This document shows positions 6,981 to 40,912 of a stretch of 64,000 bases of DNA, piece after piece; positions within the stretch are counted from its first letter, which is position 1; the number at the start of each line of letters is the position of its first letter. The DNA comes from Saprospiraceae bacterium. GTDB lineage: Bacteria > Bacteroidota > Bacteroidia > Chitinophagales > Saprospiraceae. Under the pieces are notes generated by a model. The model was not told where the DNA came from, ran no database searches, and was given only the letters and a program-made list of their open reading frames with translations. The stretch lies in NCBI GenBank assembly GCA_021299835.1, contig JAJTER010000032.1, positions 1 to 64,000 on the forward strand. Direction: 5' to 3'. The position numbers and the translations under genes were made by a program.

Positions 6981-7021
6981 TGTATTATTTTTTCATTAAC
7001 GGCATTTTGAAAAATGTTACG

Positions 7022-7050
7022 CAAATCTATATCTTTAAGGCAATTTACAA
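7022..7050 (-). promoter_or_regulatory. sdhCAB promoter
   Basis: On the minus strand TTG (7048-7050), an 18-base spacer and TAGATTTG (7022-7029) form a complete Bacteroidota housekeeping promoter. The same spacing and the same -7 sequence occur at 60814-60842. The expected transcript start is near 7015, about 35 bases before the sdhC ATG. Confidence 0.65.
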
Positions 7051-7109
7051 CTCTATTCACAGGGTTTAGTTTATTATTTTAAATTAATTTAGAATCATTT
7101 CAAATAACA

Positions 7110-7643: not shown

Positions 7644-7652
7644 AAAATAGAC

Positions 7653-9827: not shown

Positions 9828-9835
9828 TCTGCTGA

Positions 9836-14700: not shown

Positions 14701-15527
14701 CAGTTTCTAATCACGGTAAAAGTAGGAGCACAACCATTGATTATTTGATCATTATAGGCAAGGGAAAGGCCACAAATGTTTGTAGGCGTTATATTAAATC
14801 CGTTTAATTGAGGCCAACCTGTGCTATCGGGGGTTACATTGGGAGTTACGCAAGAGACTCCCCTTCTACCAGCTACATTATCACGGTTTGCCGGAAAAAC
14901 TAAATTTCCTACTACTGGTCTTCTTATTTTTATTTTTTGAACACAAGTATTTTTCTGTCCATTTAAAAGGGTAATAGTCCAGGTTCTGTTTATTATACCA
15001 ACGAGAGTATCGGTGCATGCATTAATTCTATTTTCGTATTTATCTTCATAGGTAATACTATAGGAGTTACACTCTAACGAAGTAGCTTTTCCTAATCTTG
15101 CTGTATCTGTAGGTGTTCCACACAGAACGGTGGTATCTCTTGGACAGATAATAAGCGGCGATCCAAGTGAAACCACTCTAAAGGAACCTACACAGATATT
15201 TCCACTTGGAATGTGACGGACTCTTGCATAGAGCAATTGATTTAGATAGGTACGACCAACGAAAGGCGTTGTAGGTAAAAGCTGGCCATTGGGGCCGAGC
15301 ATAACCGTAATTTCGTAGTCTGTTGGCGCTGATGGAGTACAAATAGCTGGATTTGTTTCGCTAAGGATCATTGCGGCCGTAATTCTCAGATTACAGGTAG
15401 AATCTGCACTAATCGAAACATTATTATTACAAATCAGCGTACACTGGCTGTGTAATAAAACAGGAGAATTTAAAAAGAAAGCAATTATAGCTATGATAAT
15501 CCAATCTAATTTTTTGAACCCACGCAT
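11703..15527 (-). CDS. giant secreted HYR protein with dockerin, cohesin-like domain and T9SS sorting domain
   Basis: 1274 residues. A signal peptide ends near LLHSQ. The body is built of HYR-type beta-sandwich repeats with the DNTPPVLVCP-like linker between units and many cysteines. From about 890 comes a carboxypeptidase-regulatory-like beta domain, then a dockerin (about 920-975): a first degenerate EF-hand (GVTTLDLILVNRHL) and a second canonical one (DVDGNGRISVRDVIQLQRLIL split over DVDGNG and RDVIQLQ). A WRF/PFPE/IKIGDVN segment follows, then a cohesin-like beta domain (about 1053-1189) and a type-A T9SS sorting domain starting at LRLWPNPF. The protein is exported through T9SS and probably stays on the surface or in the matrix. 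HYR repeats suggest adhesion. It has its own upstream box and terminator. The domain calls are confident; the binding partner is not known. Confidence 0.82.
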   Translation of the reverse strand: MRGFKKLDWIIIAIIAFFLNSPVLLHSQCTLICNNNVSISADSTCNLRITAAMILSETNPAICTPSAPTDYEITVMLGPNGQLLPTTPFVGRTYLNQLLYARVRHIPSGNICVGSFRVVSLGSPLIICPRDTTVLCGTPTDTARLGKATSLECNSYSITYEDKYENRINACTDTLVGIINRTWTITLLNGQKNTCVQKIKIRRPVVGNLVFPANRDNVAGRRGVSCVTPNVTPDSTGWPQLNGFNITPTNICGLSLAYNDQIINGCAPTFTVIRNWTAVDGCTNAIRTFQQVIQVIDTIKPRLTCISDTLVAFTSSATQCGATVIVPPIVFIDSCAPNNQIRVVIMSNYGVINGNGGQLTGVPPGLHSIMYMVSDPCGNTSQCTRIVRVIDNTPPVLVCPSSIQVSLTLTGEAQIEPSSFYLQATDLCCTNLTFKLQKMTASPLPFSDSLKYFCAEILTNNMATLQVTDCYGNSNFCMVEVDVVDKLPRTIICPDTARIGNPSFLADTSRVGAPRVNGTCNLFQLEYEDDRNLGCGGGTGFVRRDWTVYYGGIDTFNCPTQIIILNDTTQLRATFPADYSQTNCTNLASLRPDSLPTLFRRPTVNNAAYKGIVVTHIDTVNYNVSGACIQISRTWTITDTCVYETGDPIGPLNGRIVGTQLIRVFDNTPPSFLCPSEGLVIYLDPDSCNTTIRLPVPTNIQECLPDQVTISVSGDFGNSLDISRIPAGIYNVTYRVADVCGNFGTCDATFAIIENTPPDLFCNNIVSRSLAANGQAIVNALEFIDTVRTTDNCTAQDSIRYRIGARPTPGFTGPPPNASLTFACDCDDIGDNLLTVWAVDIAGNYERCDVIVRINDPLAVCGAGVTVAGAIKLENGSGVPSVKVEEMKNYSGESMTDNKGSYSLGNLVPGGTYEFMPGKTGNYTDGVTTLDLILVNRHLTGSRALESPYKIIAADVDGNGRISVRDVIQLQRLILNVTNTFPENKPWRFIPKSFQFPNSKDPFSTPFPESKAVSNLFKDMTDGDFVAIKIGDVNNSIIPENGISPRSQESSRAFLLPQWKLKPGERVWLPIHFESSDLWWGGQFALQVNPELIKIHGFSGSDEFNISSKSLNNNTWAMSWYADDLKKSEAGEVLGFIEVEALRQTNLSDAIALNNNSFDSEAYLSTQNIDSVVVAPLTIQYASPNAATNSGLRLWPNPFKDWVTFQLPPASGLQGVLDIYDVQGRKIWTKSWQLNKGDSPLFTLQANELPHAGVYIYKYTDGFGQYTGNLILQK

Positions 15528-15557
15528 AATAAATTTTTTTAATAGTTACAAGAGAGG

Positions 15558-15578
15558 CAATACCAAATTCATGCCAAA
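15558..15578 (-). promoter_or_regulatory. shared upstream box, copy 1
   Basis: On the minus strand the box begins TTTGGCATGAATTTGGTATT, 31 bases before the ATG at 15527. Near-identical boxes precede the genes starting at about 19.7 kb and 31875, with a weaker one before 27170. It may be a promoter or an activator site for this family of secreted proteins. Confidence 0.5.
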
Positions 15579-15591
15579 CTGAAAGATTTTA

Positions 15592-15620
15592 TAAAAAAGC
15601 GACATCTAAAAAGATGCCGC
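15592..15620 (-). terminator. intrinsic terminator of the 15654 gene
   Basis: On the minus strand, GCGGCATCT / AGATGTCGC form a 9-bp stem (one G-U) with a 4-base loop, followed by six T. It is 33 bases past the stop of the 1.35-kilo-residue HYR gene and just upstream of the shared box of the next gene. Confidence 0.8.
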
Positions 15621-15653
15621 CTTATATAAACTATGGAAAAGCTTTTAATTAAT

Positions 15654-18600
15654 TTATTTATTACCCGAGCTTAGGATCATTCTTTTTACATCGGTAAAAG
15701 AACTGGTTTCCAACTTATACAGGTAAGCTCCATCACTCCAAAAACCATCTCTTTGGAAAGGAATTTCGTTAAAACCCTTTTGAAAAATTCCTTTAGTTTC
15801 CCAAACCGACCTTCCGATCATATCAGTAATAGAGATTTTAACCTCTTGTGATTGAGGTATAGTGAATCCTATAGTTGTATTTTGATAAAAAGGATTCGGA
15901 TAATTTTGAAACAATTGGTATCCACCTTTATCTATATCTTTTGCACCGTCTTTGAAAATAAGATTAAGGTCGAGCATACCACCTTCATGAGTATAGGCCT
16001 CGGGGACGGTAGGATAAGGAGCAACATTTAGCGCATAAATTAACTCTGACGATTTTTTTGCTCTGAAGGTCAGTCTAAGCACAGGAGTTGCCGTGGTAGG
16101 CCAGGTTTTCTCGCGCATAACATTCCAACTCGCCGTTAGAATACCTTTTTCTTTATTAATTAGCGCAAAATTTTCATCTGATATGCCAGGAACATCTCCT
16201 GCTGCATAATCTATAATTTCCAATATTCTTTCATCAAAATCTAACGTAAACTGAAAACCAGCGACATCTTCCTGAGAAGCTGCTTTTACGTCGATGGTAA
16301 ATTCCTCACCGTAATTAAATTTCAAGTTGGGAATCTGTAATTGTAGTTCACCAAAAGTACTTCTTGGATTTTGTACAATGAGGCTATTTGGCGTTGCAGA
16401 GCTATTTAGATCACCCACTTTAATACCTATGAAATTGGCCTGGGCAAATTTTGTTTTAAAATCGTCTAAGGTTTTAGCTTCAGGAAATGGTACCTTAAGA
16501 GGATTTACACCAGCGGGAAAGACATAATCTGCGTCAATAAAGCGCCATGAATTATTCTGTGATCCTAAATCGGTATCTTTACCTAAGATTAACTTCCTTA
16601 ATTTTATCAAATCAAGCGTAGAAACATTACCAGAACGATCAATATCAGCGGCGATTTGTTGGTAGGGCGATTTCAGGGAAATAATGCCGAGAATAAATTT
16701 TTGGATTAGTACCAAATCCATGGTTGACAAGCCATTAAGCAAATCATCGTTCTTGTAAGGTTGTAATTTATAGTTTTTGCCAAATGCCAGATTTGCCAAT
16801 TCAAACTTACCAGTAGCTGTTGTTAAAACGTTCATCGCAGGGTCATTTACCTCTTTGATAAGTACTTTTTCAACGTCTTCCCCTTTTTCAGTTTTGATAA
16901 CGCCTGCTATTTTTCCGATAGGATTGGTTAGACAAAGGCCATCATTATCCTGAACATCAACGGTAACGGTGCAAAAATCGCTGTTTCCTTTAGTATCTGT
17001 CACCCAAAGTTCCACGGGTTGAAGACCAAAATCGGCACAAGTGAACGTTAACATGGTGTCGAGAGGATGAGGAGGGATACTGTTCCCTGAATTACCTCTT
17101 TTTATACTAATTTTTATAGGGCCACCACAAAAGTCACGGCTGGCAAGATTTATATCTTTAGCATCGACCATGGCCATAATAGCTGGCATTTTGGATAGAT
17201 TTACTGCAATATTTTTACAAATTGGAGTGGGTGGTTTTTTATCAATAACGGTCACCGACGTTTGTCCGGTCACTTTATTACCACAACCATCAGCTACAGA
17301 ATAGGTGAAAGTAGTAGTACCTAAAGGATAGGTTCCACTTGCATTTGCTCCATTTTGGTTTGCAAAAGGTGAATTATTGGAAATGATAAGATTCTGGTTA
17401 CAGTTATCGGTAGCCGTTGCTAAAGGAACAGTAACCTGCGCTACATTACAGTCAGTATACAAATTGATAACCTGATTAGCTGGAACGGTCAAAACCGGTG
17501 GAGTCTTATCCTCAACGATAATTAACTGGGCGTAAGTAAATCGATGTCCAGGAGAACCAGGCACATATTTACACAAATCGACTACCTCCCAGGTGCGGTA
17601 AACTTTGAAACAACCCGGAGAAGTCATATTAAACACATTATCGGTGTAGGCAAAAGCAATTTGAGCACAAAGGGGTTCATTTACTACTGGCCTTCTACTA
17701 ATTATCGGAAGATCATTTACACCCACCTGTGCGTTGCAAGAATTGATTGTTATATCTTTAGGCCAAGTGATATGTTGAGCTAATAAAATAGAATTATTAA
17801 CAATATTTACATTTTGGGTACAAGTAGCTTTTAATCCACGGGCATCCGTAGCTGTAAAAGTACGGGTTAGAAGACCTGTATTACACTCTTCCATTTTAAC
17901 ATTGTGGGTAGAATCCAGCGTATAGCTACAAGCTTCCAAAACGATAGGACTTCCAAAGCGCCCTAAGTTAATGAGTTCGTCATTACACTCAGTGGAAGTA
18001 TTTGCCGGACAAATAATAACGGGGGGAAGTTTATCTTCAACCGTCATTTTAACTTCACAAGTATTATAGAAATTACCCCAAAGATTACCCCCTGGTGCTT
18101 CCCTGGCAGGATCAACTGGACCATCTCCAGGATTTGAGATATACACGCGCATTTCAACGGTAATTTTACCTTTATCGACATCATCACAACAAAAGGAAAC
18201 ATAATCATCAAACCATTCCTGATAACCGGGAGCGGTAGAATCATCACCATTAGCGCCACTGCAACTATTGGTATCTTTTCTGCGCACTTTATAATAAACG
18301 GGCAGCCCACAATTATCTCTGGAACCACTATCAAAAGCTTTGGCAGAGGCGTAAGCTGTACCCTCATTGGTCAGCGTAATGTTTCCAGGACCAGTACATA
18401 TAGCGACCGGTGGCGTAGTATCAAAAACCTCCACGGTAGAAGTACAGACGGCGGTATTCCCACATTTATCGATGGCCATATAGGATATGGTATGGGTCCC
18501 TAAAGGCATACTTATTAGATTGGGATAAGTTCCAGAAAATGGGGTTGTTACCATTAAATTTGGTGCGGCGTCACAGTTATCTGAAATCAATTGAGGAGCA

Positions 18601-19655
18601 CTTAAAGGTACCAAAGCCATACAGATAGACGGTTGAGTTGAAACTCTTAATGGTAAAGGACAAACGATAACAGGCTTGGTAGTATCTTTAACCTGAATAA
18701 TCTGAGTATGCAAGGTATCCTGACTGGTACAAAGGTCGATGGCTGTCCAACGACGAATTACCGCAAAACTAAGTCCTGCACAGGTGCGAGTAGTATCATC
18801 TGTATAAGAATAATTAATTTTACACAATCCAGCTGAGTTTATTACACTTCCGTTAATGGTAGGAAAACCTGTTATACCTGGACTCACATTGGGCGTATTG
18901 CAACTGAGTAAGGTATCTCGTGGAAAAACGATTCTTCGAAGCGGTGTTAATGAATCTAGGCTAGGCTTTAGCAAGCTAATTTTCTGAATACAAGTATCGG
19001 CATTACCATAAATATCAGCAACAATCCATCGTCTGAATATTTTTTGAAGGGTATCAAGCGAACAATCGGATACCGAGACACTATCTTTATAATTATAGGA
19101 CAGGGTCCCATTACAATTATTACTCACGATAGTAGGTCTTCCCAGATTAATCCCTGAGGTATCAACACTGCAGCTAACAATAGTATCACGGCAGGTAATT
19201 ACGGGTGGCATTTTATCCACAATACGGGCAAAACCGTTACAAGAAAAAGCGGTACCAAAAACCAAAATTTCGATCCTTACAATAGAACCGATATAAGGAT
19301 TTAAGTTTACGGTAAGACTACCAGTATCCCTCTTAATGAGCGTCCCGCTTTGTGTAAATAGCGCGATAGACATATTTGCCGTAGCATAGGTCGTTGAAGC
19401 GGTATCGACGATAATAGCGGGATGAATAACCCCTTCACAATTTTGATTCACCGCAATTTCTTTGGGTGCATTTATTGGTGCAGGGTTACAAGTCAAGGTT
19501 TGGGCACCCAAATTTTCCGATAGGAAAATTAGGAGAGAGAGAACCAATAAAGGTCCGAACCTTAACACATTGTTTAAAAAGGGGTTCCCCAATCTAAGTG
19601 AATTAGTGAGGATAGAGGGTACATTTTTTTTTGCTTTTCCATTCATGATTTCCAT
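15654..19655 (-). CDS. giant secreted HYR protein with dockerin, cohesin-like domain and T9SS sorting domain
   Basis: About 1333 residues from ATG 19655; ATG 19646 is also possible. The frame is open back to a GTG at 19712, where the distance to the upstream box would match that of two sister genes, so the start is unsettled. A long signal region ends at SENLGAQ. Several HYR-type repeats with KxPPVIICP-like joints follow, including a unit with the FCCDDV motif shared with the 27253 protein. Near the C-terminus are a carboxypeptidase-regulatory-like domain, a dockerin with two EF-hand-like repeats (NGLSTMDLVLIQKFIL and DIDRSGNVSTLDLIKL), the WRF/PFPE/IKVGDLN segment, a cohesin-like domain (GFQFTLDFDERILEI) and a type-A T9SS tail from LFQNYPNPF. 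Architecture and neighbours match the 11703 protein, so the two look like tandem paralogues. Confidence 0.82.
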   Translation of the reverse strand: MEIMNGKAKKNVPSILTNSLRLGNPFLNNVLRFGPLLVLSLLIFLSENLGAQTLTCNPAPINAPKEIAVNQNCEGVIHPAIIVDTASTTYATANMSIALFTQSGTLIKRDTGSLTVNLNPYIGSIVRIEILVFGTAFSCNGFARIVDKMPPVITCRDTIVSCSVDTSGINLGRPTIVSNNCNGTLSYNYKDSVSVSDCSLDTLQKIFRRWIVADIYGNADTCIQKISLLKPSLDSLTPLRRIVFPRDTLLSCNTPNVSPGITGFPTINGSVINSAGLCKINYSYTDDTTRTCAGLSFAVIRRWTAIDLCTSQDTLHTQIIQVKDTTKPVIVCPLPLRVSTQPSICMALVPLSAPQLISDNCDAAPNLMVTTPFSGTYPNLISMPLGTHTISYMAIDKCGNTAVCTSTVEVFDTTPPVAICTGPGNITLTNEGTAYASAKAFDSGSRDNCGLPVYYKVRRKDTNSCSGANGDDSTAPGYQEWFDDYVSFCCDDVDKGKITVEMRVYISNPGDGPVDPAREAPGGNLWGNFYNTCEVKMTVEDKLPPVIICPANTSTECNDELINLGRFGSPIVLEACSYTLDSTHNVKMEECNTGLLTRTFTATDARGLKATCTQNVNIVNNSILLAQHITWPKDITINSCNAQVGVNDLPIISRRPVVNEPLCAQIAFAYTDNVFNMTSPGCFKVYRTWEVVDLCKYVPGSPGHRFTYAQLIIVEDKTPPVLTVPANQVINLYTDCNVAQVTVPLATATDNCNQNLIISNNSPFANQNGANASGTYPLGTTTFTYSVADGCGNKVTGQTSVTVIDKKPPTPICKNIAVNLSKMPAIMAMVDAKDINLASRDFCGGPIKISIKRGNSGNSIPPHPLDTMLTFTCADFGLQPVELWVTDTKGNSDFCTVTVDVQDNDGLCLTNPIGKIAGVIKTEKGEDVEKVLIKEVNDPAMNVLTTATGKFELANLAFGKNYKLQPYKNDDLLNGLSTMDLVLIQKFILGIISLKSPYQQIAADIDRSGNVSTLDLIKLRKLILGKDTDLGSQNNSWRFIDADYVFPAGVNPLKVPFPEAKTLDDFKTKFAQANFIGIKVGDLNSSATPNSLIVQNPRSTFGELQLQIPNLKFNYGEEFTIDVKAASQEDVAGFQFTLDFDERILEIIDYAAGDVPGISDENFALINKEKGILTASWNVMREKTWPTTATPVLRLTFRAKKSSELIYALNVAPYPTVPEAYTHEGGMLDLNLIFKDGAKDIDKGGYQLFQNYPNPFYQNTTIGFTIPQSQEVKISITDMIGRSVWETKGIFQKGFNEIPFQRDGFWSDGAYLYKLETSSFTDVKRMILSSGNK

Positions 19656-19747
19656 AATTGCCGGATTTGAGATACGAGATAAAACCGTCCACATAAAAAA
19701 CCAGCGAAACACCTTAATAAAGTATTTCTGTTTTCAATAATATGTTA

Positions 19748-19767
19748 CAATACAAAATCATGCCAAA
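19748..19767 (-). promoter_or_regulatory. shared upstream box, copy 2
   Basis: On the minus strand the sequence is TTTGGCATGATTTTGTATTG. It differs from copy 1 by one substitution and one missing base. It lies 36 bases before the GTG at 19712 and 93 before the ATG at 19655. A TATTATTG, one mismatch from TAnnTTTG, follows 21 bases after the leading TTTG. Confidence 0.5.
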
Positions 19768-19810
19768 TTACATATATGGATAATATTTAATTTAAAAAAT
19801 ATATTTATAC

Positions 19811-19850
19811 AAAAAAGGCCTTTATCCAGATTAGGATAAAGGCCTTTTTT
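19811..19850 (-). terminator. strong bidirectional-type terminator after the scaffold/SprF operon
   Basis: A perfect 17-bp stem (arms 19811-19827 and 19834-19850, core GGCCTTTATCC) with a 6-base loop and A/T tails on both sides. It follows the PorP/SprF-like gene and would end the transcript that includes the scaffold protein. Confidence 0.92.
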
Positions 19851-19877
19851 GTAAGCAAAAATTTGTTGTCTTATTAA

Positions 19878-20849
19878 TTATTTTTTACTCCCGTATTTTT
19901 GGGGATCAAAAGCGATGGCAAAAGTAACTTCATGGGTACCTGTTCCACTAGCATAGCTGCTAATTTCCTGTAGGGATAAATCGAAGGAATAGAAAAATTG
20001 AATATTAGCTGCTTTAGCACCAAGGAGAAAACCTAAAGCGCCTAAGGAGCGATAGGAAATTCCGGTAATAAACTGGTCGTTTAACAGACCAACATTTAGA
20101 TTCAGGTCAGCTTGAAAAGGCGCGTTTTTAATTCTCCTTAAAAAAACAGAAGGTTCTATAGAAACATTACTGGAAGACGATTTGATTTTATGACCAGCCA
20201 ATACCATATAGTAGTCGAAAGGAGAAGATTTATTTACATCTACTATAGCGATATTATCGAGACGATTCCCAACAATATTAGAAAAGGTCACTCCTAAATA
20301 GGTAGGTCTTTCGTGACTTCCCTCAATTACGGGATTACCAAAACCAGCCATAACAGAAAGAGCCACATCGAAACGACCAATCCCTGCAACGGCATTTTCC
20401 GCTATGGGATCATTTAAATCATAGTATTTATTTCCATTAGTAATATCAGCAAAGATGGCGGAACTTCTCAAACGCAGTTGTTGAAATTCTGTTGAGAAAC
20501 CAGCAGAAAGGAAAAAATCTTCTTTAATATCAAAAAAGAAAGAGTAATTCACCATAGCCTTTGTTCTGGAGAGAAGGCCTGCATTTTCTGAAAGAACACC
20601 AACGCCCAGACCAAATTTATTTCCTAATGGCCCGTTATAGAGCGCATTTAACGATTTGGGACTATCTGAAATACCGGACCATTGATAACGGCCATTTACT
20701 TGCAGTTGATGAAAGCCGCGTAAGCCTGAAGCGGCTGGGTTCACCAACACCGGATTTACGGTATAGTGGGAGAAATTAGCTTCATCTTGAGCGAGTAAAG
20801 ACCCTGAACAAAAAAGAAGGAGCAAAAGGGGGAGAAATAAATTTTTCAT
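19878..20849 (-). CDS. PorP/SprF-family outer-membrane protein
   Basis: 323 residues with a signal peptide (LLLFCSGSLLAQ) and the family opening FSHYTVNPVLVNPAASG. The rest is amphipathic beta-strand sequence ending in a strand (HEVTFAIAF), consistent with a beta-barrel. In T9SS bacteria, SprF-like proteins are typically encoded next to large adhesins with type-B sorting domains and are needed for their export or surface attachment. Here it follows the 1809-residue multi-cohesin protein by 37 bases, ends in a strong terminator, and so is very likely the dedicated partner of that protein. It is not the core PorP of the secretion machine, since no other T9SS machinery genes are near. Confidence 0.88.
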   Translation of the reverse strand: MKNLFLPLLLLLFCSGSLLAQDEANFSHYTVNPVLVNPAASGLRGFHQLQVNGRYQWSGISDSPKSLNALYNGPLGNKFGLGVGVLSENAGLLSRTKAMVNYSFFFDIKEDFFLSAGFSTEFQQLRLRSSAIFADITNGNKYYDLNDPIAENAVAGIGRFDVALSVMAGFGNPVIEGSHERPTYLGVTFSNIVGNRLDNIAIVDVNKSSPFDYYMVLAGHKIKSSSSNVSIEPSVFLRRIKNAPFQADLNLNVGLLNDQFITGISYRSLGALGFLLGAKAANIQFFYSFDLSLQEISSYASGTGTHEVTFAIAFDPQKYGSKK

Positions 20850-20886: not shown

Positions 20887-23800
20887 TTAGTTTTCCCTTA
20901 ACAGGGTAATAGAACCTTCCAATGGTTTATCGCCATTAAAGTCCAGAGTAAAATAATACACTCCTTGAGGTAAAAGCTCACCATTTATGGTCGTACCTTT
21001 CCAATCATTCCTGTAGTTTTTCTGGTCGAGAACAAGTTGTCCCCAACGGTTAAAAATACGAAGTTGATTTTGCTGGTATGCTGGATCAAAGGTTACACAA
21101 TTGATAATAAACTCCTCATTTAAGCCATCTCCATCGGGGGTAATCAATTTACGGTATTCTAAACATTCGAATCTTTCATCATTAACTTCAACTACAGAGA
21201 TGGCAGGATTAGGTGCGCAACCGCGGGAATCAGTTAATTGTAGGCCATAAATACCCGGACATAGATTCAATAAAAACGAATCTCTTTTTCCGGCAACCTG
21301 TGGCCAGGAGTAATAGTATGGGGGAAATCCACCAGTTGCGGAAGCGGTAATCTTTCCATCACAATTTCTATCGTCGAGGGTAGGCGTCGCTTTAAGGGTA
21401 ACCACAATAGGCGTTGGATCCTTAAGGGTATAGGTTTGAGTATATTTACAATTATTCCTATCCTCAACTTCTATGGAATAGATACCCTGGGGAATTAAAT
21501 TAAGGGAAGGTCCACGTACACCGTTATTCCAAGCATACACATACGTTGAACCAGGAACTCCGCCAGAAGCAGAAACCACAATAGAACCATTTCTTGCTGC
21601 AGGACAACCAATATCAATGACAGAGGCGTTCAAATCTACTTTTGTGGGAGCAGTAGCATTGATTTCTCTTGTTATGGTGCAACCAAGTGGATCTGAAATT
21701 TTAACCTGATACATTCCCGCAGCAGCATTTTGAAATAAGGAAGCACTGCTTGCCAAATTACCATTTAGCAACCATTCATAAACAAAGGATGTACTTCCGC
21801 TATTATTCTTTGCTGTTACCTCAAGAATTCCATCTTTATTAGAAAGGCAGCTAACAACAAATCCATTATAGTTAGAATTTGCTTTTACGTTGGCCGTTAA
21901 TATGTTTTTAGCTTCTACATTATATACTCTAACCACCTCGTTACCAGAAGCTTCTCCGATAATTACGGTATAAACACCAGACATGACGTCAATTAAGTCT
22001 TTTGAACTACTAATAGTGTCCCCCTTACTGTTCACCCATCTAAATTTGTAAGGTGTTTTTCCACCTTGAACATCCAGAATAACTGAACCATTGAGATCTT
22101 CCGGACAATCACTTTTTGTGATAGCAGGTTTAGCTGAAAAGGTATTAACAAAGATAGGTGCTCCCACAAAAGTACAACCGTTAGCATCTCTGATTGAAGG
22201 AGTATAACTACCTTCACAAAGACTTATCAATTGCAGCCCTGTATTATTTGTGTTCCAATTAACAGTGTAAGCGGCGGTGCCACCTGAAATGGATAATACA
22301 ATTCTGCCTGTACATCCACTTTCCTCACTATCGTGTTTTACAGTAGCTTCTACGGTAAAAGGAGTAGGCGTTGAAATAGTGAACGAGCCTTCTTTTTTTG
22401 TATTAATAGCGTCCTCTACAACATAATTGATAACACCTCCTCTAAGATTTTCCAGATTAAGAATACCATTTGTAGTGTTAAAAACCCGGCCATTCAAGGA
22501 AAGAGTTAGTTTATAAGGGCTTGTTCCGCCACTTATCATCACTTTTGCTTTACCTGTAGTATCTCTTGGACAAAGTACCCCCGTGGTGGTAACGTCAACA
22601 GCCAGCGGCACCAGTTTGTATTCTACATTAAAACAAGTATCTACCGGACAAGAAGAATTATCACTAACCTTCACGCAATACTTACCTGTGACCAATGTTT
22701 CAATGGTAGAGGTAGTTGCTCCATTATCCCATAAAAACGCATAGGGTGCTGAACCACCTATCACAGAAAGGGATATTTGACCATTATTATTTGAAGGAGC
22801 CCCCGTAACATGGGTTATGGTTGGCGTTACTCTTGGTTTACTTTGTTCTGTTAAGGTTACAGACAATGATAACGTTGCATTTTGTGCATCGGTAACCGTC
22901 ACTGAATAATTTCCTGGACCTAATTTACTTAAATTCTGAACGGTTTCTCCGTTACTCCATTTGTAAGAAAAGGGAGCAACACCTCCAGAAAGTGATAAGG
23001 TTACTGAACCCGTACTTGATCCCTCGCAGGGATTAACGACTACAGCGGGAGCAAATTGAAGTTTACGAACCATTTTGACGCAAATTTCTGCTCTACAAGC
23101 TGTTGTATCACGAACTATCAGGCAATAATTACCTGTATCAAGATTTGATATATTCTTAGTATTTGCTGTATATGTGCCAGGTCCTGTCCAATTATAGGTT
23201 ACCAAGCCTTTTGTTCCCTGCACTGTCAAATCTATTCCTCCGTCATTTCCATTATTTATATAGGTAGGTTGAACGGCTGAAATAGTTATTCCATCCGTTT
23301 GACCTATGGTGATAGAACGAAATAGCTGACAACCTGTAGCGTCTGTTAACGTTACGTTATAATTATCAGGCGCAAGATTTGTTTGATTTGCCTGGGAAGG
23401 AAGACCTTTATTCCAAAGATAGGAATAGGCTGTTTCACCTCCTGTAACAGTAAGAGCAATAGACCCTGTATTTCTTCCTAAACAAATGGCATCCACCTTT
23501 TGAATTGAAAGACTAAGATTAGACTGTTTAATAACCTGTGGCGTTGACACAATGGCGCATCCCAATGCGTCAGTAAGCGTTAATTGATAGGTACCCAGAG
23601 GTACGTTTTTAAGTTCTGGCAGAGCAGATAGCCCGCTACTCCAGGCATAAGTATAAGGTTTTTGTCCTCCGGTAACCACTGCATTCAATGTACCTAATTC
23701 TTGATTTGCACAACCTGCATCCGTTTTGGATACCTGAGAAATCAGTGCAGAATCAGGACCTGGCACAACAAAAGTAGCGACAGCATTCAGAGGATTGCCA

Positions 23801-26316
23801 ACATTGGTTACGGTAACTGTGTAAGTACCCTTTGCCACATTTTGTAAATCTTTTGATGTTGCCTGATTACTCCAAAGATAAGTAAAGGCGCCTGTACCTT
23901 GTGAAACCGAAATACTAATACCTCCTGTGTTGGAACCAAAACAAGAAACTGCTTTAATGGTAGCAACGGGTGCTATAACTGGTGGTACTAAGTTACCGGA
24001 ACGAACGGTTCCCGGAATAAACTGATAAGGAATGGACGTTTCGTTTTTATCTAAAATTTCTGTCGTAACCGATGGGTCGTGAGTTACTCTGGATGAACCA
24101 TTTTCACTTAACACAAGAAAGCATAATTTAAATATCACCGTATTGTTTGGCACTGAGACCCCTGCTACATTAGGATCTAACCAGGAAAGTTTGATTTTTC
24201 CTGGAAGATTTGATCCAGTTCCCGGTAAACCAAACTGAGATTCATTTAATCCAGCAAGATTAAAATCAGATACAGAATCAAATTTTAGTCTTATTGGATC
24301 ATAAGCCAAGCTAAATTCAAGACCTAGAATATCCTTGAAATTTAACACAGAAACAGGCATACAAACTTTATCGCCAACACCCCCTGTTGCATCGCCGACT
24401 TTAACGGTGAAATCCGTCGTGTTTACTAATCCTTCTATGAAAACTTCGCCGTCTGTAAATCCAGGAGTAAGTTTATTTTGTACACTATCCAGGACCTCAA
24501 AATTACTCTTATTAAAGCGAATGGGCACTGGACCAGCACCTTGTGCTGTAAAACAAGCTTTAAAAAGAACTGTATTATTAGTGACCGAAATACCTTTTGT
24601 ATCTGAACTGGTCCATGACATCCTTATGTTTCCTGCTACGTTGGATCCTTGTCCGGGTAAGCCAAAAGAATTAATACTTAAACCTTGCAGTCCGAAGCGG
24701 GTTACAGAATCAAAGCGTAATTGAGCGGCGTCATAAGTTAATGTAAATTGAGTCGCAGAAATTTTATTGAAACCTGTTGCGCTAATATCAATACAAATGG
24801 GTTCATTTGCTTCAACCGCCCCACCAGTAACCTTAAAGGTAGGCCCGTTTAATGAAGCGCCACCACTACCTGGTTTACCCAGGGTAATTGTACCCGATTG
24901 CGTGGTATATGGAAGAAGTACATCTGAAGAATTGATAATTTCACCTGTTGTAGGTATTGAAATGGATGTATTTCCTGAAGAATCTCTCGCTGTGAAACAT
25001 AGTTCAAATAGCATGGCTCCATCGGCCAGTGTCGTCTTTTGACCTCTGCTATCAAACCAACCTAAAATAAGTGAGCCTGGTTTGTTTAAGCCATCTCCTG
25101 GTTTTCCAACGGCTGATTCCTCAAAACCTCCGGGAGACAAAATACTATTAAAATTCCGTACTGATTTGAACAGTAATTTAGTTGAATCATAATTCATTTT
25201 AAATTGTAATCCAATAATATCTTTAAATCCCTCTATAGTAATGGGTACACAAACTTCGGAACCAAACCCAACCGAGGCATTTCCCACTAAAACCTTAAAA
25301 TTATCAGAAGTAGTTGCCCCACCGGCACCTACTGTAATCTGACCTTGTCGCCCTTCAAAAACAACTTCTTTGTTGCTTGAATCAATAATTTCTGCAATAG
25401 CATCAAAAGTAATATTGGTTGTTCCATCCGTTTGTTTAGCTGAGAAACAAACCTGAAAGATAGAAAGATTATCTGCCAGGGTTACTCCTTTTGCTTCATT
25501 ATCGAACCAGGAACATTTAATTTTTCCCAATGGATTTGTACCCCGTCCAGGCATTCCAAATTGTGCGGTATCAAGCCCTGGAACCTGAAAATTTCTCAAT
25601 GATGTGAAGGTTAACAAGCTGGAGTTGTAGTTCATAGTGAATTCCATACCAGCTATTTTAGTAAAGTTTTGGGTATTCACATTCAAACAAAAACTTTCCC
25701 CTTTTGCTACCGTTTTGTCTTCAATGTCGAGTATTAAGTTGCCCACATTACCCGTACTTCCGCCGCCTGTGCTACCTCCACCGGTACTTCCGCCTCCACC
25801 AGTGCTTCCGCCACCGGTGCTTGTGCCACCTGCCCCAATAATGATAACTGGAGTATTTACGGTACTGGGAACAACAGCCTCTGAAAGATTTATAATTTCA
25901 ATATTATTTACTCTGATAGTATCTTGCGCATCAGCATTAACCGCGGTAAAGCAAACTTGAAACAAGGTACTTGCAGCGGGTATGGTAATCCCCTTTAACT
26001 GGTCATCAAACCAAGCCATATTTAACTTGGCAGATTTACCATCAGATGCCACAACATTGTTAAAAGCACCTGATAAACCTGAGACTCCCGGATTAAATCC
26101 TTGCACCTTACTATAGGTTAATTTTTGAGGATTATAATTCAATGCTAATTGAAAGCCAATTAAATTGGTAAAATTTGTTACCGTCACATTGGAGCAAAAA
26201 GCAGCCCCTTTTGCCACTGTGGTATCTTTAATAGCTATGTTTAACGTTTGCGCGTTTAAGAACTGACTGAAAATTAAAAGCCCAAAAATAAGAACCCGGC
26301 TAATTGTTAACTTCAT
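20887..26316 (-). CDS. scaffold-like surface protein: five cohesin-like domains, SprB-like repeats, type-B T9SS sorting domain
   Basis: 1809 residues. The signal peptide ends at FLNAQ. Five cohesin-like domains of about 140 residues lie at about 23-160, 193-330, 337-480, 492-629 and 635-773. Each has the pattern GxEFTMNYxxxLLxF, an F.LPG-type loop in most units, xxSWFD and IFQVCFxA. Domains 1 and 2 are joined by a GGGSTG linker (161-192). Each cohesin carries the same two cysteines (for example C41/C122 and C210/C290). About 12 SprB-like repeats follow (about 780-1700; GGxxPYxYxWSNG, GxYxVTVTD). The last 90 residues are a type-B gliding-associated sorting domain (ITPDGDGLNEEF, RIFNRWGQLV). 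It is preceded by a lone-cohesin gene and followed by an SprF partner. The likely role is to display cohesins on the cell surface; a cellulosome-style scaffold is the closest analogy, but no partner is proven. Confidence 0.85.
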   Translation of the reverse strand: MKLTISRVLIFGLLIFSQFLNAQTLNIAIKDTTVAKGAAFCSNVTVTNFTNLIGFQLALNYNPQKLTYSKVQGFNPGVSGLSGAFNNVVASDGKSAKLNMAWFDDQLKGITIPAASTLFQVCFTAVNADAQDTIRVNNIEIINLSEAVVPSTVNTPVIIIGAGGTSTGGGSTGGGGSTGGGSTGGGSTGNVGNLILDIEDKTVAKGESFCLNVNTQNFTKIAGMEFTMNYNSSLLTFTSLRNFQVPGLDTAQFGMPGRGTNPLGKIKCSWFDNEAKGVTLADNLSIFQVCFSAKQTDGTTNITFDAIAEIIDSSNKEVVFEGRQGQITVGAGGATTSDNFKVLVGNASVGFGSEVCVPITIEGFKDIIGLQFKMNYDSTKLLFKSVRNFNSILSPGGFEESAVGKPGDGLNKPGSLILGWFDSRGQKTTLADGAMLFELCFTARDSSGNTSISIPTTGEIINSSDVLLPYTTQSGTITLGKPGSGGASLNGPTFKVTGGAVEANEPICIDISATGFNKISATQFTLTYDAAQLRFDSVTRFGLQGLSINSFGLPGQGSNVAGNIRMSWTSSDTKGISVTNNTVLFKACFTAQGAGPVPIRFNKSNFEVLDSVQNKLTPGFTDGEVFIEGLVNTTDFTVKVGDATGGVGDKVCMPVSVLNFKDILGLEFSLAYDPIRLKFDSVSDFNLAGLNESQFGLPGTGSNLPGKIKLSWLDPNVAGVSVPNNTVIFKLCFLVLSENGSSRVTHDPSVTTEILDKNETSIPYQFIPGTVRSGNLVPPVIAPVATIKAVSCFGSNTGGISISVSQGTGAFTYLWSNQATSKDLQNVAKGTYTVTVTNVGNPLNAVATFVVPGPDSALISQVSKTDAGCANQELGTLNAVVTGGQKPYTYAWSSGLSALPELKNVPLGTYQLTLTDALGCAIVSTPQVIKQSNLSLSIQKVDAICLGRNTGSIALTVTGGETAYSYLWNKGLPSQANQTNLAPDNYNVTLTDATGCQLFRSITIGQTDGITISAVQPTYINNGNDGGIDLTVQGTKGLVTYNWTGPGTYTANTKNISNLDTGNYCLIVRDTTACRAEICVKMVRKLQFAPAVVVNPCEGSSTGSVTLSLSGGVAPFSYKWSNGETVQNLSKLGPGNYSVTVTDAQNATLSLSVTLTEQSKPRVTPTITHVTGAPSNNNGQISLSVIGGSAPYAFLWDNGATTSTIETLVTGKYCVKVSDNSSCPVDTCFNVEYKLVPLAVDVTTTGVLCPRDTTGKAKVMISGGTSPYKLTLSLNGRVFNTTNGILNLENLRGGVINYVVEDAINTKKEGSFTISTPTPFTVEATVKHDSEESGCTGRIVLSISGGTAAYTVNWNTNNTGLQLISLCEGSYTPSIRDANGCTFVGAPIFVNTFSAKPAITKSDCPEDLNGSVILDVQGGKTPYKFRWVNSKGDTISSSKDLIDVMSGVYTVIIGEASGNEVVRVYNVEAKNILTANVKANSNYNGFVVSCLSNKDGILEVTAKNNSGSTSFVYEWLLNGNLASSASLFQNAAAGMYQVKISDPLGCTITREINATAPTKVDLNASVIDIGCPAARNGSIVVSASGGVPGSTYVYAWNNGVRGPSLNLIPQGIYSIEVEDRNNCKYTQTYTLKDPTPIVVTLKATPTLDDRNCDGKITASATGGFPPYYYSWPQVAGKRDSFLLNLCPGIYGLQLTDSRGCAPNPAISVVEVNDERFECLEYRKLITPDGDGLNEEFIINCVTFDPAYQQNQLRIFNRWGQLVLDQKNYRNDWKGTTINGELLPQGVYYFTLDFNGDKPLEGSITLLREN
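25741..25836 (-). repeat. GGGSTG-coding tandem repeat (inter-cohesin linker)
   Basis: Four to five imperfect 15-18-base units rich in CCACC/ACTTCC on the plus strand encode a Gly/Ser/Thr linker at residues 161-192 between cohesin-like domains 1 and 2. Such tracts can change length by slippage. No other inter-cohesin junction in the protein has one. Confidence 0.85.
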
Positions 26317-26366: not shown

Positions 26367-27170
26367 TCAATTTGCAGGCATATATATGATTTGTTGATTT
26401 GACTGAAAATTACCTTGTTTAATTTGCAAATTATAGTAACCTCTTGCTGGAAAATCAGAAACAGGCATTTGCAAAAATTGGACCCCAGAGCCAATTTTAT
26501 TTAACCATCTTTTTATTACACTCCCTTTAACGTCCGTTAGGGTGTATTCTACTGTACCTGGAACAGACGAAAACCAATTTACGGAAACATCCCCAGTAGA
26601 AACTGGATTTGGGTAAACTTTATCTATTCTTAACTGCTCTGAATCAATACCTTGTGCCGAAGATGTTGCCCCCATTTTTAGAACCACGAAACCGTCAACA
26701 TAGAATGCAGTGATCGCTTTATATGAGCTATCAGCCGTTTCCCTGATATTAGTAGGCGTGTCAATGAAAGTTATAGGAGATTTGAGACCTCTCAGACCTT
26801 TTACTTTAAAATAAAGAGAAAAAATAGATTTTTTATCGGGCAGCGTCACTCCTTTCAACGACTCGTCAAACCATTGGAAGCTAAGAACTCCTTTTGATTT
26901 TGAAACCAAGCCAAAATGATCGTCCAACTTCAAAGGCAAACCAAAATTTCCTACGCTATCTAAAACAAGTAGGGTTGAATCCCAGGCAACATTGAATTGT
27001 GTACCCACTATAAATTTGAAATTACTTACTTGAATATCTGCTTTATACACATCAACATTCGACATAATGGAATCTTTGGGTGCCCAATAAGAAACATTCT
27101 GGGCCACCATGTGATTCAGAAAAACAAAACTCAATAATAAACCAACATAAAGAGATAAAAACTTACTCAT
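26367..27170 (-). CDS. single cohesin-like domain protein with T9SS sorting domain
   Basis: 267 residues. The signal peptide ends at HMVAQ. One cohesin-like domain spans about 30-165 (FIVGTQFNVAWDSTLLVL, VLSFQWFDE, GVTLPDKKSIFSLYF), clearly homologous to the five repeats of the next gene but without their cysteine pair. A type-A T9SS tail begins at IDKVYPNPV. It lies 50 bases upstream of the scaffold gene and 82 bases after the 1540-residue dockerin protein, in the same direction. A free or surface-bound single cohesin could act as a monovalent receptor or capping piece for dockerins, or it could be a decayed copy of a scaffold module. The domain calls are good; the role is inferred. Confidence 0.78.
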   Translation of the reverse strand: MSKFLSLYVGLLLSFVFLNHMVAQNVSYWAPKDSIMSNVDVYKADIQVSNFKFIVGTQFNVAWDSTLLVLDSVGNFGLPLKLDDHFGLVSKSKGVLSFQWFDESLKGVTLPDKKSIFSLYFKVKGLRGLKSPITFIDTPTNIRETADSSYKAITAFYVDGFVVLKMGATSSAQGIDSEQLRIDKVYPNPVSTGDVSVNWFSSVPGTVEYTLTDVKGSVIKRWLNKIGSGVQFLQMPVSDFPARGYYNLQIKQGNFQSNQQIIYMPAN

Positions 27171-27252: not shown

Positions 27253-30200
27253 TCATTCAAATTTGACCATTTTTAGCGTCCTTTTATACTCTGCAGATTC
27301 TATGGTAAAATAATAAATACCTGGGGAATGAAAGGTATTTTTTTCAAAATCCAGCACATGTTCCCCTGCACTAAACCATTGATTTGACTGCTTGATTAAT
27401 CTTCCGGTAACATCAGTAATACTCCATTTCACTAAACTTTGAGTAGGAATTTGAAACCAAACATTGGTAGTTTCCGTAAAAGGATTCGGGAAATTTTGTT
27501 TTACTTCCGTAAAATAAATCGATTTACTTTTTTCTATCCAACCTAACTCTAAACGCAATAAATCATTATTTATATATGCCTCAGGGGACATAAATCTGGA
27601 ATTTAGAGAAATGGCGTCTTTAATAAAGCCATCCATTTTAGCTTTAATCACAATGGTAGTCAGCGCTGTATCGGTAGTGCTTCCATTCCAGCTGGCCGTT
27701 AGCAGACCATCCTGAGGGAAAAATCCAAAAAATTCTTTGGACGCCAGACCTTGTTTCATTTCAACCAAATCAAACACCTTTTCATCGAATTGCAATGCAA
27801 ATTGGAATCCTTCCAGACCCTTTGTATTTTTTAATAAAATTGGAATTTCAACTAACTGACCTGCCTCAAAAAATTCATTTTCTAAAAACAAATTCCAGGT
27901 TCCCTTTTCCTCACCACTTCTTATTCCCGGAGCAACCGGACCATTAATTTGTGCTGAACCATTTACATCTCCGATTTTAATACCTATAAAATCAGCCCTT
28001 TTGTGCCCATCAATGGGATTATAAGAAACCTCTTCAGGGAAAGGTGTTTTCCATGGGTTATTTGGATCCGGGAAAACAAAAGAGGAGCTAACAAACCGCC
28101 AGCTTTCATTAAACTGGAAAGCTAAATCAATACCAAGAATCAACTTCCTTAACTGAATCAAATCGATGGTACTCAGTGTTTTTGAATTATTTACATCGGC
28201 CGCTATAATTTTATAGGGCGAATTAAAAGGCTCTACATTTAAAATATGCTTGCTTATCAGCACTAAATCGAAAGTAGTTATCCCATTTAAAAAACCTCTG
28301 TTAAGCGAGGGCTTAACAGTATAATTTCTATTTAAAGTCAGGGACGGAATAGAATATCTTCCATCGATGGCAGTATTCACTGTCGATGTAGAGGTACCTG
28401 ACAGTCTTACTGAAACACCCTCGAGTCTTGCTTGATTTTCATTAGTAATAACTCCTGAAATAGATGCAGAACCACTACCTTTACAAATATTAATGTTATC
28501 TTCCACATTGATATAAGTGGTACAAAAACTGTGATTTCCTTTGTTATCCCAGGCATGAATTTCAACAAAAACCAAGCCTACTGTGTCCGAACACATTAAG
28601 GTTATAGAAGTGGAATCTTTATTAAATGGGACACCTACTCTATTGATTGAATAATGGGTAATTTGATTCTGCCTGTTATTCTGGGCATTAACTGCTCCCT
28701 GACCATTACAATCAAATACAGCAGCGCTAATAAAATCTGAAGCCCAGACGACCATCATCCCCTCTCCATCCAGTCCAGGCATCAATCCAGTAACCACGCC
28801 ATTTAAACAAAGCGGGGTTGTGGCTATTTTATCTGCAACAATGAAAGGAATCCTATTTATGGCAACATTACCACAACCATCTCTTACTGACACCAAAAGA
28901 TCATGCTTTCCTTCAGGTAAATTCTTCAATTTCACACTCCCAGTTGCTAAAGAATCTGTAGTCATACTGGTGCTTGCCGCTAAGGTCCAATCAGATTGGA
29001 AGGTGATAGGTGCAGCCACTGCGGTACCCTGATTTAATGCCACACTTACAGCGGTTATCGTTAGATTACTTTTACAGAGATCAGCTGCTTTGAAACGTAC
29101 ATCAATATTTGCTAAACAAGTATTGGGAAAAGTAGGAAAAGTATCTGGCGTCGGTATTGTTACGATAGGTGGGGTTGAATCAAATATTTTAACTACCTGG
29201 GTATATTGGTAAGAAAATGCCGGCGTGGAGTCCCTGGTAAAAGTTGGCCAGATTGGATTTGGCAAAAAGCAAGATTTGTTATCATTATTGAAAACAAAAG
29301 GCGTTCCCAATGGTTTGGGCGCGTTGTCCTGAGCTGCTGGAAAAACTCTTTCCCTATAATTAAAAGAGGAATAATTAGTTGGTACTCTGTCCTTTGAAAT
29401 AAAGAACTCTTCAACCCCATTTGTTCCAGGGGTTGTTCCTCTGGTAAAGGTCGTATTATTAAGTTCTCTGTCACGTACAAGTACAAAAAAACCTGACCCC
29501 TCCGCTACATCATAAGTATCGTTAAAGTCGCCATCCCCATTTTGATCCCATTTGCGGGGAACAACCTGAGTGAATTTTGCTGGATCAAGCGTATTTGGGC
29601 AAGAACTTGCCCACTCCCCAAGTTCGCACCAATTAATAACGGTGTAAGTCCTATTTTCTTTTGAACAAATATTTGTTTCAGAGCTATCAGGTGTAACTTT
29701 TGTAACAGACATACTTACAGCAAGGATATCACATGCCACCTCATAAGTCTCCATTACAGGAATTGATGAACCAATTTGGCAATTGAGATTAATATCGGCA
29801 GGAAATAAAATATCGTATTCGTGAACTGGAAGTACTCTTACCCTTTGGGTACATAAATTGATTCTGGTTACCACACCTCTAATCGTTTTAATAGCCACCC
29901 ATTTACGTGTATAAAAGCCAGCGCCACATGTCAAGCTAGAATCGAGAGAATATTCAACGGTTCCAGTACATTCCAGCGCCGAAATTTGTGGTGTACCAAA
30001 TCTGGTATTTGCAGTATTTGTATCATAAATAAGAAAACGGTCTTCTGGTTTATTGCAATACATGTAGGTATCAGCAGGCGCAGAACAAATTGGGTCTGAT
30101 CTGTCTTCAACACTAAGAGAAAGCCAACAAAAGGAGGTATTTCCTTGCACATCGGTTCCATGAAGTTCCACGATTACTGGAGCGGATACGTCACAACAAT

Positions 30201-31875
30201 AAAACTCGGCAAAATCGACCAAAGGGGTATAAAAACTTCCTGAGTTAGGCCCTCCGTTAATTTGTATAAAATGCTCTCTAATATCCCCGTCCAAGTCAAG
30301 GTCGTAAGCTGTATTCGTTAAAAACCGTTCTAAGCAATCCGCTTTTACCAATCTTCTTACTTTTAACGTTAGCAAAGTACAATTATCACGAGAGCCTTCA
30401 TTGATTTCATTTATTCCAATTCTTGCGTAAGATAAACCAGCATTAATTCCCAAATAATAATCTCCGCCTGGGGGATTTGTCAATACTATATTAAGTTGAT
30501 CATCGCAAATCATTGTGGGAGGAACATTGTCAACCATAGTAAAAAGAAGCGTATCTATCGTTCTGTTGAAACAATTATCAATTACCTCAATGATGAGTCT
30601 ATGTCTTCCATAAGGAATTTCAGTGAAAATCTTTTTCCCGTTCCGCGTTACGGCTGGATAAATTCCATCAAACCAAGTAGTACCCCTCTGTGGAATGCCA
30701 TTCACTAATCGATCCAGCGATTGTATTTTATGGCTTACCGTTAAACTTGTCGCACAATTATCCCGAATTTTCAATCCATATAAAAAGGCAAGGTTACTCG
30801 TATCCACGTTTAGTTCTCCTAAACAGGACGAAGTACCTGTTGATACAGCCACAGAATCAAAAATAGTGGTAATTAATGGTTTTTCTAAATCCAATACACG
30901 TATCACCATGGTATCTTTAAAACGATTCCCTGTACACCAATCCCAAATTTCTACAACCGCATCAACTTTAAATCCTGAACCACAAGATGCTGTAGTATTC
31001 TTGACAACAGAAGTGGTATAAGCACAAGTCATATCAAAAAGACTAATATTTTGACCCGTTTTAGGGTGCACAGCCCTATAATTATCTCGAATTAAACTAT
31101 CTACCCAAGGTTGCCCATTGGTACACAGGTTGAAAGTAAGGGTATCTCTCGACGGAGGTGGTAAAAATAAAGCAGAAGAAGGTCTCTTAAACCTTATAAT
31201 TTGATTAATTGTCGTATCATTTGAACGGGAGTCTATAGCTTGAAAAGATCTTCTTATAGTAGCAAAAATACTATCTGTCGAACAATTCGTTTGAGATAAA
31301 AAATCAGTTACTTTAATTTGAATTTGTCCGCCGCAAAGATCTGTAAAAGTGGGCGTACCAGTGAAATACCTATAGCCAGCTACCCGCCAGCTACCATCGA
31401 CATTATTCACAAAACTAACATCATTACACCATAGGTCAATAGTATCAATTAAAGCAAAAGCAGCCGTATTTAATACCGGAGGCGCTTCATCAGTAGCCGT
31501 TATAATACCTTGACAGACAACGAGGGATCCTTTAAAAACACCATAAGTCCAACCAACTGCCTGTGGACTAATACCATCAATAATGTTATTATTATTAGCA
31601 TTTAAGTCGGCAATTTTCAGAACCATTCCAGTAGTGTCGCAGGACCCCGGGGTATTCCCAGCGTTCGGAAATATATTTTTAAGAAACAAGGTACGTTGAC
31701 AATTATCATCTAGAATGACATTTAGATCAGTACAACCACAAGGATTGCTTTGTCCCTTTAAAGCATTTAGACTAATCAATATTAATCCTAAAAGCATCAT
31801 TAAAGAAGGAACCCCTAAGGAAACCTTTTTTATGAATTGCTGGATGGTTACAATGGCGTTAAAATTTGTCTTCAT
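27253..31875 (-). CDS. giant secreted Cys-rich HYR-like protein with dockerin, cohesin-like domain and T9SS sorting domain
   Basis: 1540 residues. A long basic-then-hydrophobic signal region ends near ALKGQ. The body has many cysteines and HYR-like units; one holds an FYCCDVS motif matching FCCDDV in the 15654 protein. A carboxypeptidase-regulatory-like domain (GVSVRLSGTSTST) precedes a dockerin at about 1196-1250 with two EF-hand-like repeats (NGITTFDLVLISKHIL; DVNNSKTLSTIDLIQLRKL). The WRF/PFPE/IKIGDVNGS segment, a cohesin-like domain (GFQFALQFDEKVFDL) and a type-A T9SS tail (VKQNFPNPF) complete it. It is the first gene of a probable operon running through the lone cohesin, the scaffold and the SprF partner. 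The long 400-base leader region suggests regulation. Confidence 0.82.
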   Translation of the reverse strand: MKTNFNAIVTIQQFIKKVSLGVPSLMMLLGLILISLNALKGQSNPCGCTDLNVILDDNCQRTLFLKNIFPNAGNTPGSCDTTGMVLKIADLNANNNNIIDGISPQAVGWTYGVFKGSLVVCQGIITATDEAPPVLNTAAFALIDTIDLWCNDVSFVNNVDGSWRVAGYRYFTGTPTFTDLCGGQIQIKVTDFLSQTNCSTDSIFATIRRSFQAIDSRSNDTTINQIIRFKRPSSALFLPPPSRDTLTFNLCTNGQPWVDSLIRDNYRAVHPKTGQNISLFDMTCAYTTSVVKNTTASCGSGFKVDAVVEIWDWCTGNRFKDTMVIRVLDLEKPLITTIFDSVAVSTGTSSCLGELNVDTSNLAFLYGLKIRDNCATSLTVSHKIQSLDRLVNGIPQRGTTWFDGIYPAVTRNGKKIFTEIPYGRHRLIIEVIDNCFNRTIDTLLFTMVDNVPPTMICDDQLNIVLTNPPGGDYYLGINAGLSYARIGINEINEGSRDNCTLLTLKVRRLVKADCLERFLTNTAYDLDLDGDIREHFIQINGGPNSGSFYTPLVDFAEFYCCDVSAPVIVELHGTDVQGNTSFCWLSLSVEDRSDPICSAPADTYMYCNKPEDRFLIYDTNTANTRFGTPQISALECTGTVEYSLDSSLTCGAGFYTRKWVAIKTIRGVVTRINLCTQRVRVLPVHEYDILFPADINLNCQIGSSIPVMETYEVACDILAVSMSVTKVTPDSSETNICSKENRTYTVINWCELGEWASSCPNTLDPAKFTQVVPRKWDQNGDGDFNDTYDVAEGSGFFVLVRDRELNNTTFTRGTTPGTNGVEEFFISKDRVPTNYSSFNYRERVFPAAQDNAPKPLGTPFVFNNDNKSCFLPNPIWPTFTRDSTPAFSYQYTQVVKIFDSTPPIVTIPTPDTFPTFPNTCLANIDVRFKAADLCKSNLTITAVSVALNQGTAVAAPITFQSDWTLAASTSMTTDSLATGSVKLKNLPEGKHDLLVSVRDGCGNVAINRIPFIVADKIATTPLCLNGVVTGLMPGLDGEGMMVVWASDFISAAVFDCNGQGAVNAQNNRQNQITHYSINRVGVPFNKDSTSITLMCSDTVGLVFVEIHAWDNKGNHSFCTTYINVEDNINICKGSGSASISGVITNENQARLEGVSVRLSGTSTSTVNTAIDGRYSIPSLTLNRNYTVKPSLNRGFLNGITTFDLVLISKHILNVEPFNSPYKIIAADVNNSKTLSTIDLIQLRKLILGIDLAFQFNESWRFVSSSFVFPDPNNPWKTPFPEEVSYNPIDGHKRADFIGIKIGDVNGSAQINGPVAPGIRSGEEKGTWNLFLENEFFEAGQLVEIPILLKNTKGLEGFQFALQFDEKVFDLVEMKQGLASKEFFGFFPQDGLLTASWNGSTTDTALTTIVIKAKMDGFIKDAISLNSRFMSPEAYINNDLLRLELGWIEKSKSIYFTEVKQNFPNPFTETTNVWFQIPTQSLVKWSITDVTGRLIKQSNQWFSAGEHVLDFEKNTFHSPGIYYFTIESAEYKRTLKMVKFE

Positions 31876-37208: not shown

Positions 37209-37241
37209 ATTGATTAACTGATATTGAAAATAATAAGAGAA

Positions 37242-37249
37242 CAAAAATA
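37242..37249 (-). promoter_or_regulatory. -7 promoter box of the peroxidase gene
   Basis: The minus strand reads TATTTTTG (TAnnTTTG), 34 bases before the ATG at 37208. This supports the inner start, because the TTG at 37244 would overlap the box. No good -33 element at standard distance. Confidence 0.4.
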
Positions 37250-37366
37250 GGTTTTTTTTTCGACAAAATGTTTGAAAAACAAGTTAAAATAATGCGGAGA
37301 ACTATTGAAATATAAAGTTTTCAACCAACAAGCTCCACGTCAAAAAGTTTGAAAATAAAAACAGGT

Positions 37367-40855: not shown

Positions 40856-40875
40856 AATCTTATGAATAAGGTTCT

Positions 40876-40883: not shown

Positions 40884-40912
40884 TATTATTAAACCCCAAT
40901 GAAAAAATATCT

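Follow-up and report, generated by a model that had tools for sequence, protein, structure and literature searches.

A tandem-cohesin protein with an SprB-type stalk and a T9SS type B tail as a candidate cell-surface scaffoldin in a Saprospiraceae bacterium

The window, a 64,000-nucleotide stretch of a contig from a Saprospiraceae bacterium, contains on its minus strand a single open reading frame of 1809 aa (20887..26316) whose product, called the scaffold here, combines a signal peptide, five cohesins, twelve SprB repeats, and a T9SS type B tail. The signal peptide, MKLTISRVLIFGLLIFSQFLNAQ, was assigned by eye (26248..26316). It is followed by cohesin 1 (25840..26241), a flexible linker rich in Gly, Ser, and Thr, read from the sequence and of identical type in genus relatives (25747..25836), and cohesins 2 (25333..25734), 3 (24883..25296), 4 (24439..24840), and 5 (24001..24408), all on the same strand. 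Pfam finds Cohesin in five stretches of the protein (E 9.9e-43; 146 bits against a cut-off of 24.1), and local profiles recover five cohesins and 12 SprB repeats. The repeats, which would form the stalk (21172..23964, minus strand), appear in Pfam as 10 stretches (PF13573, E 5.3e-63) and by eye as 12, in agreement with the earlier note, which had counted about 12. The C-terminal sorting domain (20896..21159, minus strand) matches CHU_C in Pfam (E 3.2e-21) and the T9SS type B family TIGR04131 in NCBIfam (47.1 bits against a cut-off of 35). The union of a multi-cohesin scaffold with SprB repeats and a type B tail, as that note proposed, is thus borne out by Pfam, NCBIfam, and the local profiles. 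The range it gave, 22302–26250, was too short: it spans only residues 23 to about 1338 and omits 20887–22301, which encodes the final SprB repeats as well as the type B tail that its title names. By Pfam the protein has several tandem cohesins and no catalytic domain, and a Pfam scan with E up to 1 found no carbohydrate-binding module on it.

Cohesins 1 to 4 were assigned from sequence only, and cohesin 5, one of the five units, was modelled with AlphaFold2 from an alignment with 38 other scaffold cohesins (pLDDT 94.8, pTM 0.88). The top match of the model by Z is 2vn5_A, a type I cohesin of Clostridium cellulolyticum (Z 16.9, rmsd 1.6, 124 aligned), the best 50 PDB rows are all cohesins or complexes bearing cohesins (Foldseek, VIA-align), and solved type I cohesins are matched along the entire domain. 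As modelled, cohesin 5 is a type I cohesin, which rules against the idea that the units adopt a beta-sandwich fold unrelated to cohesins. The scaffold-cohesin profile matches 14 PDB sequences; those so named are cohesins or scaffoldins, and 5nrk_A and 5nrm_A, labelled 'Endoglucanase', are cohesin chains of Coh-Doc complexes. The other four units of the scaffold are cohesins as judged by their profile matches.

On the same strand, downstream of the scaffold gene, lies a gene for a PorP/SprF-family outer membrane protein (19878..20849; PF11751, E 7.7e-45; TIGR03519, 161 bits). Upstream lies a gene for a single-cohesin protein ('CA') of about 268 aa with a T9SS type A tail (26367..27170, minus strand), whose cohesin is weak in Pfam (19.0 bits, cut-off 24.1) and clear with the family's own profile. 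In transcription order the cassette reads single-cohesin protein, scaffold, and PorP, often with a dockerin protein in front, the dockerin gene being over-represented in this arrangement because the named relative loci were picked via the dockerin-cohesin module. PorP lies directly downstream in 18 of the 19 scaffolds with a complete tail, the exception being L088. At 20 loci, of which 19 are distinct (L077 and L097 being one contig by length), the single-cohesin gene lies upstream of the scaffold; it is missing before the short scaffolds L085 and L087. Both the architecture and the conserved cassette are well supported. The T9SS sortase PorU is encoded in the genome, as is a GldJ-like protein that scores below the curated cut-off.

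PorP-like proteins bind type B proteins experimentally in Porphyromonas gingivalis and Flavobacterium johnsoniae (PMC9143113), and on these grounds the PorP next door is the probable cognate anchor of the scaffold. The type B tail, which the earlier note took as the anchor, is present, but it most likely acts as anchor jointly with the product of the adjacent PorP/SprF gene, by analogy with SprB and SprF (PMC9143113). The F. johnsoniae pair has SprB repeats, a type B tail, and an adjacent PorP/SprF gene in common with this locus (PMC9143113), whereas the scaffold is far shorter (1809 aa versus 669 kDa) and carries five N-terminal cohesins. Its overall shape, tail, and PorP neighbour would suit a plain SprB-family adhesin, in which the cohesin-fold domains are mere spacers or adhesive tips with no dockerin partner. 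Stacks of Ig-like domains are frequent in adhesins, a further point for such a protein. We regard this as a serious rival to a scaffold function and a rather unlikely one.

Nine dockerin proteins of one type were located in the genome, and five of them lie on the window's 68.8-kb contig, which makes up 1.7% of the assembly: at 11703, 15654, 27253, and 34338 in the window, all on the minus strand, and at 66.2 kb of the contig. Typically such a protein runs from its body through CarboxypepD_reg, dockerin, and cohesin-like domain to a T9SS type A tail, as seen by Pfam and NCBIfam in the protein at 27253..31875, where the dockerin with its C-terminal extension occupies 27952..28287. At 15654..19712 an HYR body precedes the dockerin (16395..16736), the cohesin, and the T9SS type A tail (NCBIfam and module model), while the protein at 11703..15527 has a dockerin (12417..12755), a weak cohesin-like domain (21.9 bits), and a T9SS type A tail. 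The protein at 34338..37244 would bring an enzyme as cargo, since an animal-type haem peroxidase (PF03098, E 7e-139) is followed by a dockerin (35046..35363), a cohesin, and a T9SS type A tail.

The dockerins score near the Pfam cut-off, and three helices are predicted for the dockerin in the module model. Across 93 dockerin modules from many genomes the second calcium (F-hand) loop is intact, all 93 having D at positions 1 and 12 and N or D at position 3, and 85/93 having S at position 5; most lack the position-5 ligand of the first loop. In Ruminococcus group 1 dockerins the hydrophobic contact with the cohesin is made chiefly by helix-1 positions 11 and 15 (PMC5429695); the dockerins here mostly have F/Y and L at these sites. 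We infer that dockerins and cohesins would bind each other in a calcium-dependent manner. The concentration of dockerins with an intact second loop in the cluster that encodes the scaffold argues against a partnerless adhesin, an objection that the earlier note had anticipated and that the dockerin proteins of the same gene cluster answer.

Which cohesins these dockerins would engage is complicated by the cohesin-like domain that directly follows the dockerin in almost every such protein. In the model of the CarboxypepD_reg-dockerin-cohesin module of 15654–19712 (pLDDT 92.4, pTM 0.88) a cohesin forms the final domain (4dh2_C, Z 13.8) and the module looks rigid, so that the dockerin may be occupied in cis. 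Under such pairing the dockerin would dock on the following cohesin of its own chain, giving a rigid block ahead of the type A tail, and the scaffold cohesins would bind something else, or the few partnerless dockerins such as that of the lysyl endopeptidase. The adjacency of the two domains in nearly all such proteins and the fixed arrangement implied by the pTM speak for it, as does a tree of 273 cohesin domains in which 123 of 124 dockerin-protein cohesins form a clade apart from the rest. Against it, there are dockerins with no cohesin match behind them (L035, L037, and L085). Two of them belong to the nine proteins of the genome: the L037 protein has no cohesin match by local profile and the L035 protein stops after its dockerin. 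A coevolution analysis of the paired dockerin and cohesin of these proteins gave scattered top pairs at an effective depth of about 80 sequences. We consider cis pairing rather unlikely, and it too is a serious rival to the scaffold reading. The dockerin proteins have their own type A tail, and anchoring without the scaffold is probably possible for them, a point against that reading.

The L035 protein (6295–8220, minus strand) has 642 aa, with a body resembling lysyl endopeptidase (Achromobacter protease I, E 3.8e-30) and a C-terminal dockerin followed by a stop; it is without cohesin and T9SS tail, and genus relatives have dockerin-matching ORFs of 642 or 643 aa.

In the same tree the domains of the single-cohesin proteins form their own clade (23/24). 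Scaffold cohesins and dockerin-protein cohesins fall in separate clades, and their partners may therefore differ. A Cys pair marks 92 of 94 inner scaffold units, 14 of 26 first units, and all 5 autonomous cohesins; it was found in 0/24 single-cohesin-protein domains and 0/124 dockerin-protein domains. No cohesin unit carries just one Cys of the pair, which is likely explained by a disulfide. L040:7678–8166 (minus strand) encodes a secreted lone cohesin of the scaffold class of 163 aa with the Cys pair, and frames of similar length occur in genus relatives.

The bodies that the dockerins carry point to the nature of the cargo. Among 51 dockerin-bearing bodies, those longer than 1000 aa being scanned only across the 1000 aa adjoining the dockerin module, we found HYR in 18, HYR_4C in 12, other Ig-like families in 9 and 7, and haem peroxidase in 2; the 18 families listed for these bodies include no glycoside hydrolase. 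At least two enzymes with a dockerin are encoded in the genome, a haem peroxidase and a lysyl endopeptidase. Judged by these family matches, the dockerins carry chiefly HYR/Ig fibre proteins and not polysaccharide-degrading enzymes. A cellulosome or other polysaccharide-degrading complex shares the cohesin and dockerin families with this locus. It is nevertheless highly improbable here, because the scaffold has no carbohydrate-binding domain by Pfam and the bodies, within the stretches scanned, are mostly HYR/Ig and include no glycoside hydrolase family.

The architecture extends to many relatives. Proteins with at least three cohesins and SprB repeats, which the earlier note had suggested searching for, are found in many of them with the architecture conserved, and the complete ones have 3 to 8 cohesins and 2 to 18 SprB repeats. 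Of 120 family genomes, 109 match the scaffold profile and 108 the dockerin-module profile; the two profiles overlap and the dockerin module itself contains a cohesin, so these presences and absences are no proof of partnership. A check at the ORF level covered 31 genomes, 20 drawn from the weaker ones and 11 without any cohesin match. A frame with at least three cohesins occurs in 14 of the 20 and is missing from six, and the 11 have no dockerin-module match either. The 14 genomes with such a frame hold from 0 to at least 17 dockerin modules (0 in one, 3 in another, and at least 5 in the rest), and the 17 without it hold 0–6. The architecture thus tracks dockerin modules across genomes, which counts against a plain SprB adhesin, and cis pairing leaves unexplained that modules are few in genomes with few or no multi-cohesin frames. 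In one genome, G090, there is a four-cohesin frame (C464), yet no dockerin-cohesin module was found. Across the phylum, the scaffold-cohesin profile has matches in 15 of 296 sampled genomes; five belong to the family, and the others mostly have one or two weaker matches. Judged from these matches, the architecture is recurrent in Saprospiraceae-type bacteria, including the cultured Phaeodactylibacter xiamenensis, and rare elsewhere in Bacteroidota, and most sampled family members show signs of a cohesin/dockerin kit.

Taken together, the reading we hold to be somewhat probable is that the scaffold is a PorP-anchored cell-surface scaffoldin gathering dockerin-tagged fibre proteins and a few enzymes. 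The T9SS would export the scaffold, the neighbouring PorP/SprF barrel would hold its type B tail, and the 12 SprB repeats would serve as a stalk with the five cohesins of the N-terminus at its outer end, where they would bind the dockerins of co-exported proteins. The bound proteins would be mostly large HYR/Ig fibre proteins, with at least two enzymes in the genome, and the outcome would be a surface coat of several components, adhesive or protective. What the kit builds is probably an adhesive coat of protein and not a machine for degrading cellulose, and the scaffold is best read as cellulosome-like in principle and not as a cellulosome. An extension that we think improbable is that the gliding machinery tows the scaffold along the cell and that the dockerin of one protein binds the cohesin of the next, so that each PorP-anchored scaffold would seed a mobile, calcium-dependent matrix of HYR fibres.

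Comparison with known systems helps to delimit what is new. Clostridial scaffoldins (CipA, CipC, and ScaB; PMC11557425) likewise have tandem type I cohesins without a catalytic domain and dockerin-bearing partners. In contrast, the scaffold here has no CBM and no SLH or sortase anchor, but a type B tail and PorP, as well as a conserved cohesin Cys pair, HYR/Ig cargo, and cargo with its own cohesin and sorting tail. A scaffoldin-like protein of Candidatus Stygibacter (Cloacimonadota), also predicted only, has tandem cohesins, a C-terminal domain cited as T9SS-type that would attach it to the surface, and dockerin proteins in the genome (PMC8542988). It differs in bearing CBM2/CBM3 and in dockerin proteins that include glycoside hydrolases and peptidases, and the sections of the paper that deal with it leave SprB repeats and a PorP neighbour unmentioned (PMC8542988). 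The merging of two architectures that the earlier note saw as a way of building a scaffold on a gram-negative surface is real and conserved; building such a scaffold is not itself new, since a T9SS-anchored multi-cohesin protein was proposed in Cloacimonadota in 2021 (PMC8542988). The 'Planctosome' proposed for freshwater Planctomycetes is also a non-cellulosomal cohesin-dockerin set and includes an adaptor with dockerin, HYR, and cohesin, but its anchor is a lamin-tail protein with one cohesin, and the portion of the paper on the proposal describes no tandem-cohesin SprB scaffold and no T9SS tail (PMC6461901). Bacteroidetes genomes have been stated to be without cohesins and dockerins (PMC5831590), a 2024 survey of cellulosome bacteria leaves Bacteroidota untreated in its pertinent parts (PMC11557425), and we found no description of an SprB-stalk cohesin scaffold in the open-access literature.

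If the scaffoldin reading is right, an aquatic bacterial family, one common in activated sludge (PMC9304909), would use the cohesin-dockerin plug on a gliding-adhesin platform for a surface coat and not for cellulose. Many HYR/T9SS proteins of so far no known role would gain a function and a testable partner code, and the Cys pair would mark a class of cohesins.

Several further frames were observed. On the plus strand of the window, a 1168-aa protein (37349–40855) has no significant Pfam family, and an M12B reprolysin-like protease frame (40862–42445) overlaps a frame with P-domain, Cadherin_3, and a T9SS tail (42318–44459); no dockerin was seen in this overlapping pair. A 1594-aa protein at L038:5294–10075 (minus strand) combines SprB repeats and a type B tail with a single N-terminal cohesin seen by local profile. 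At L041 a four-cohesin frame (5523–7385, plus strand) overlaps one with a cohesin and an SprB repeat (7366–10485), a second scaffold that is split or frameshifted. In P. xiamenensis, four- and eight-cohesin frames overlap (L116:12091–13638 and 13613–20284, plus strand), giving 12 cohesins if they are one gene, and two adjoining cohesin units there are identical, suggesting recent duplication. Three consecutive cohesins of equal score at G050:C5:1947–3203 likewise suggest a recent tandem duplication.
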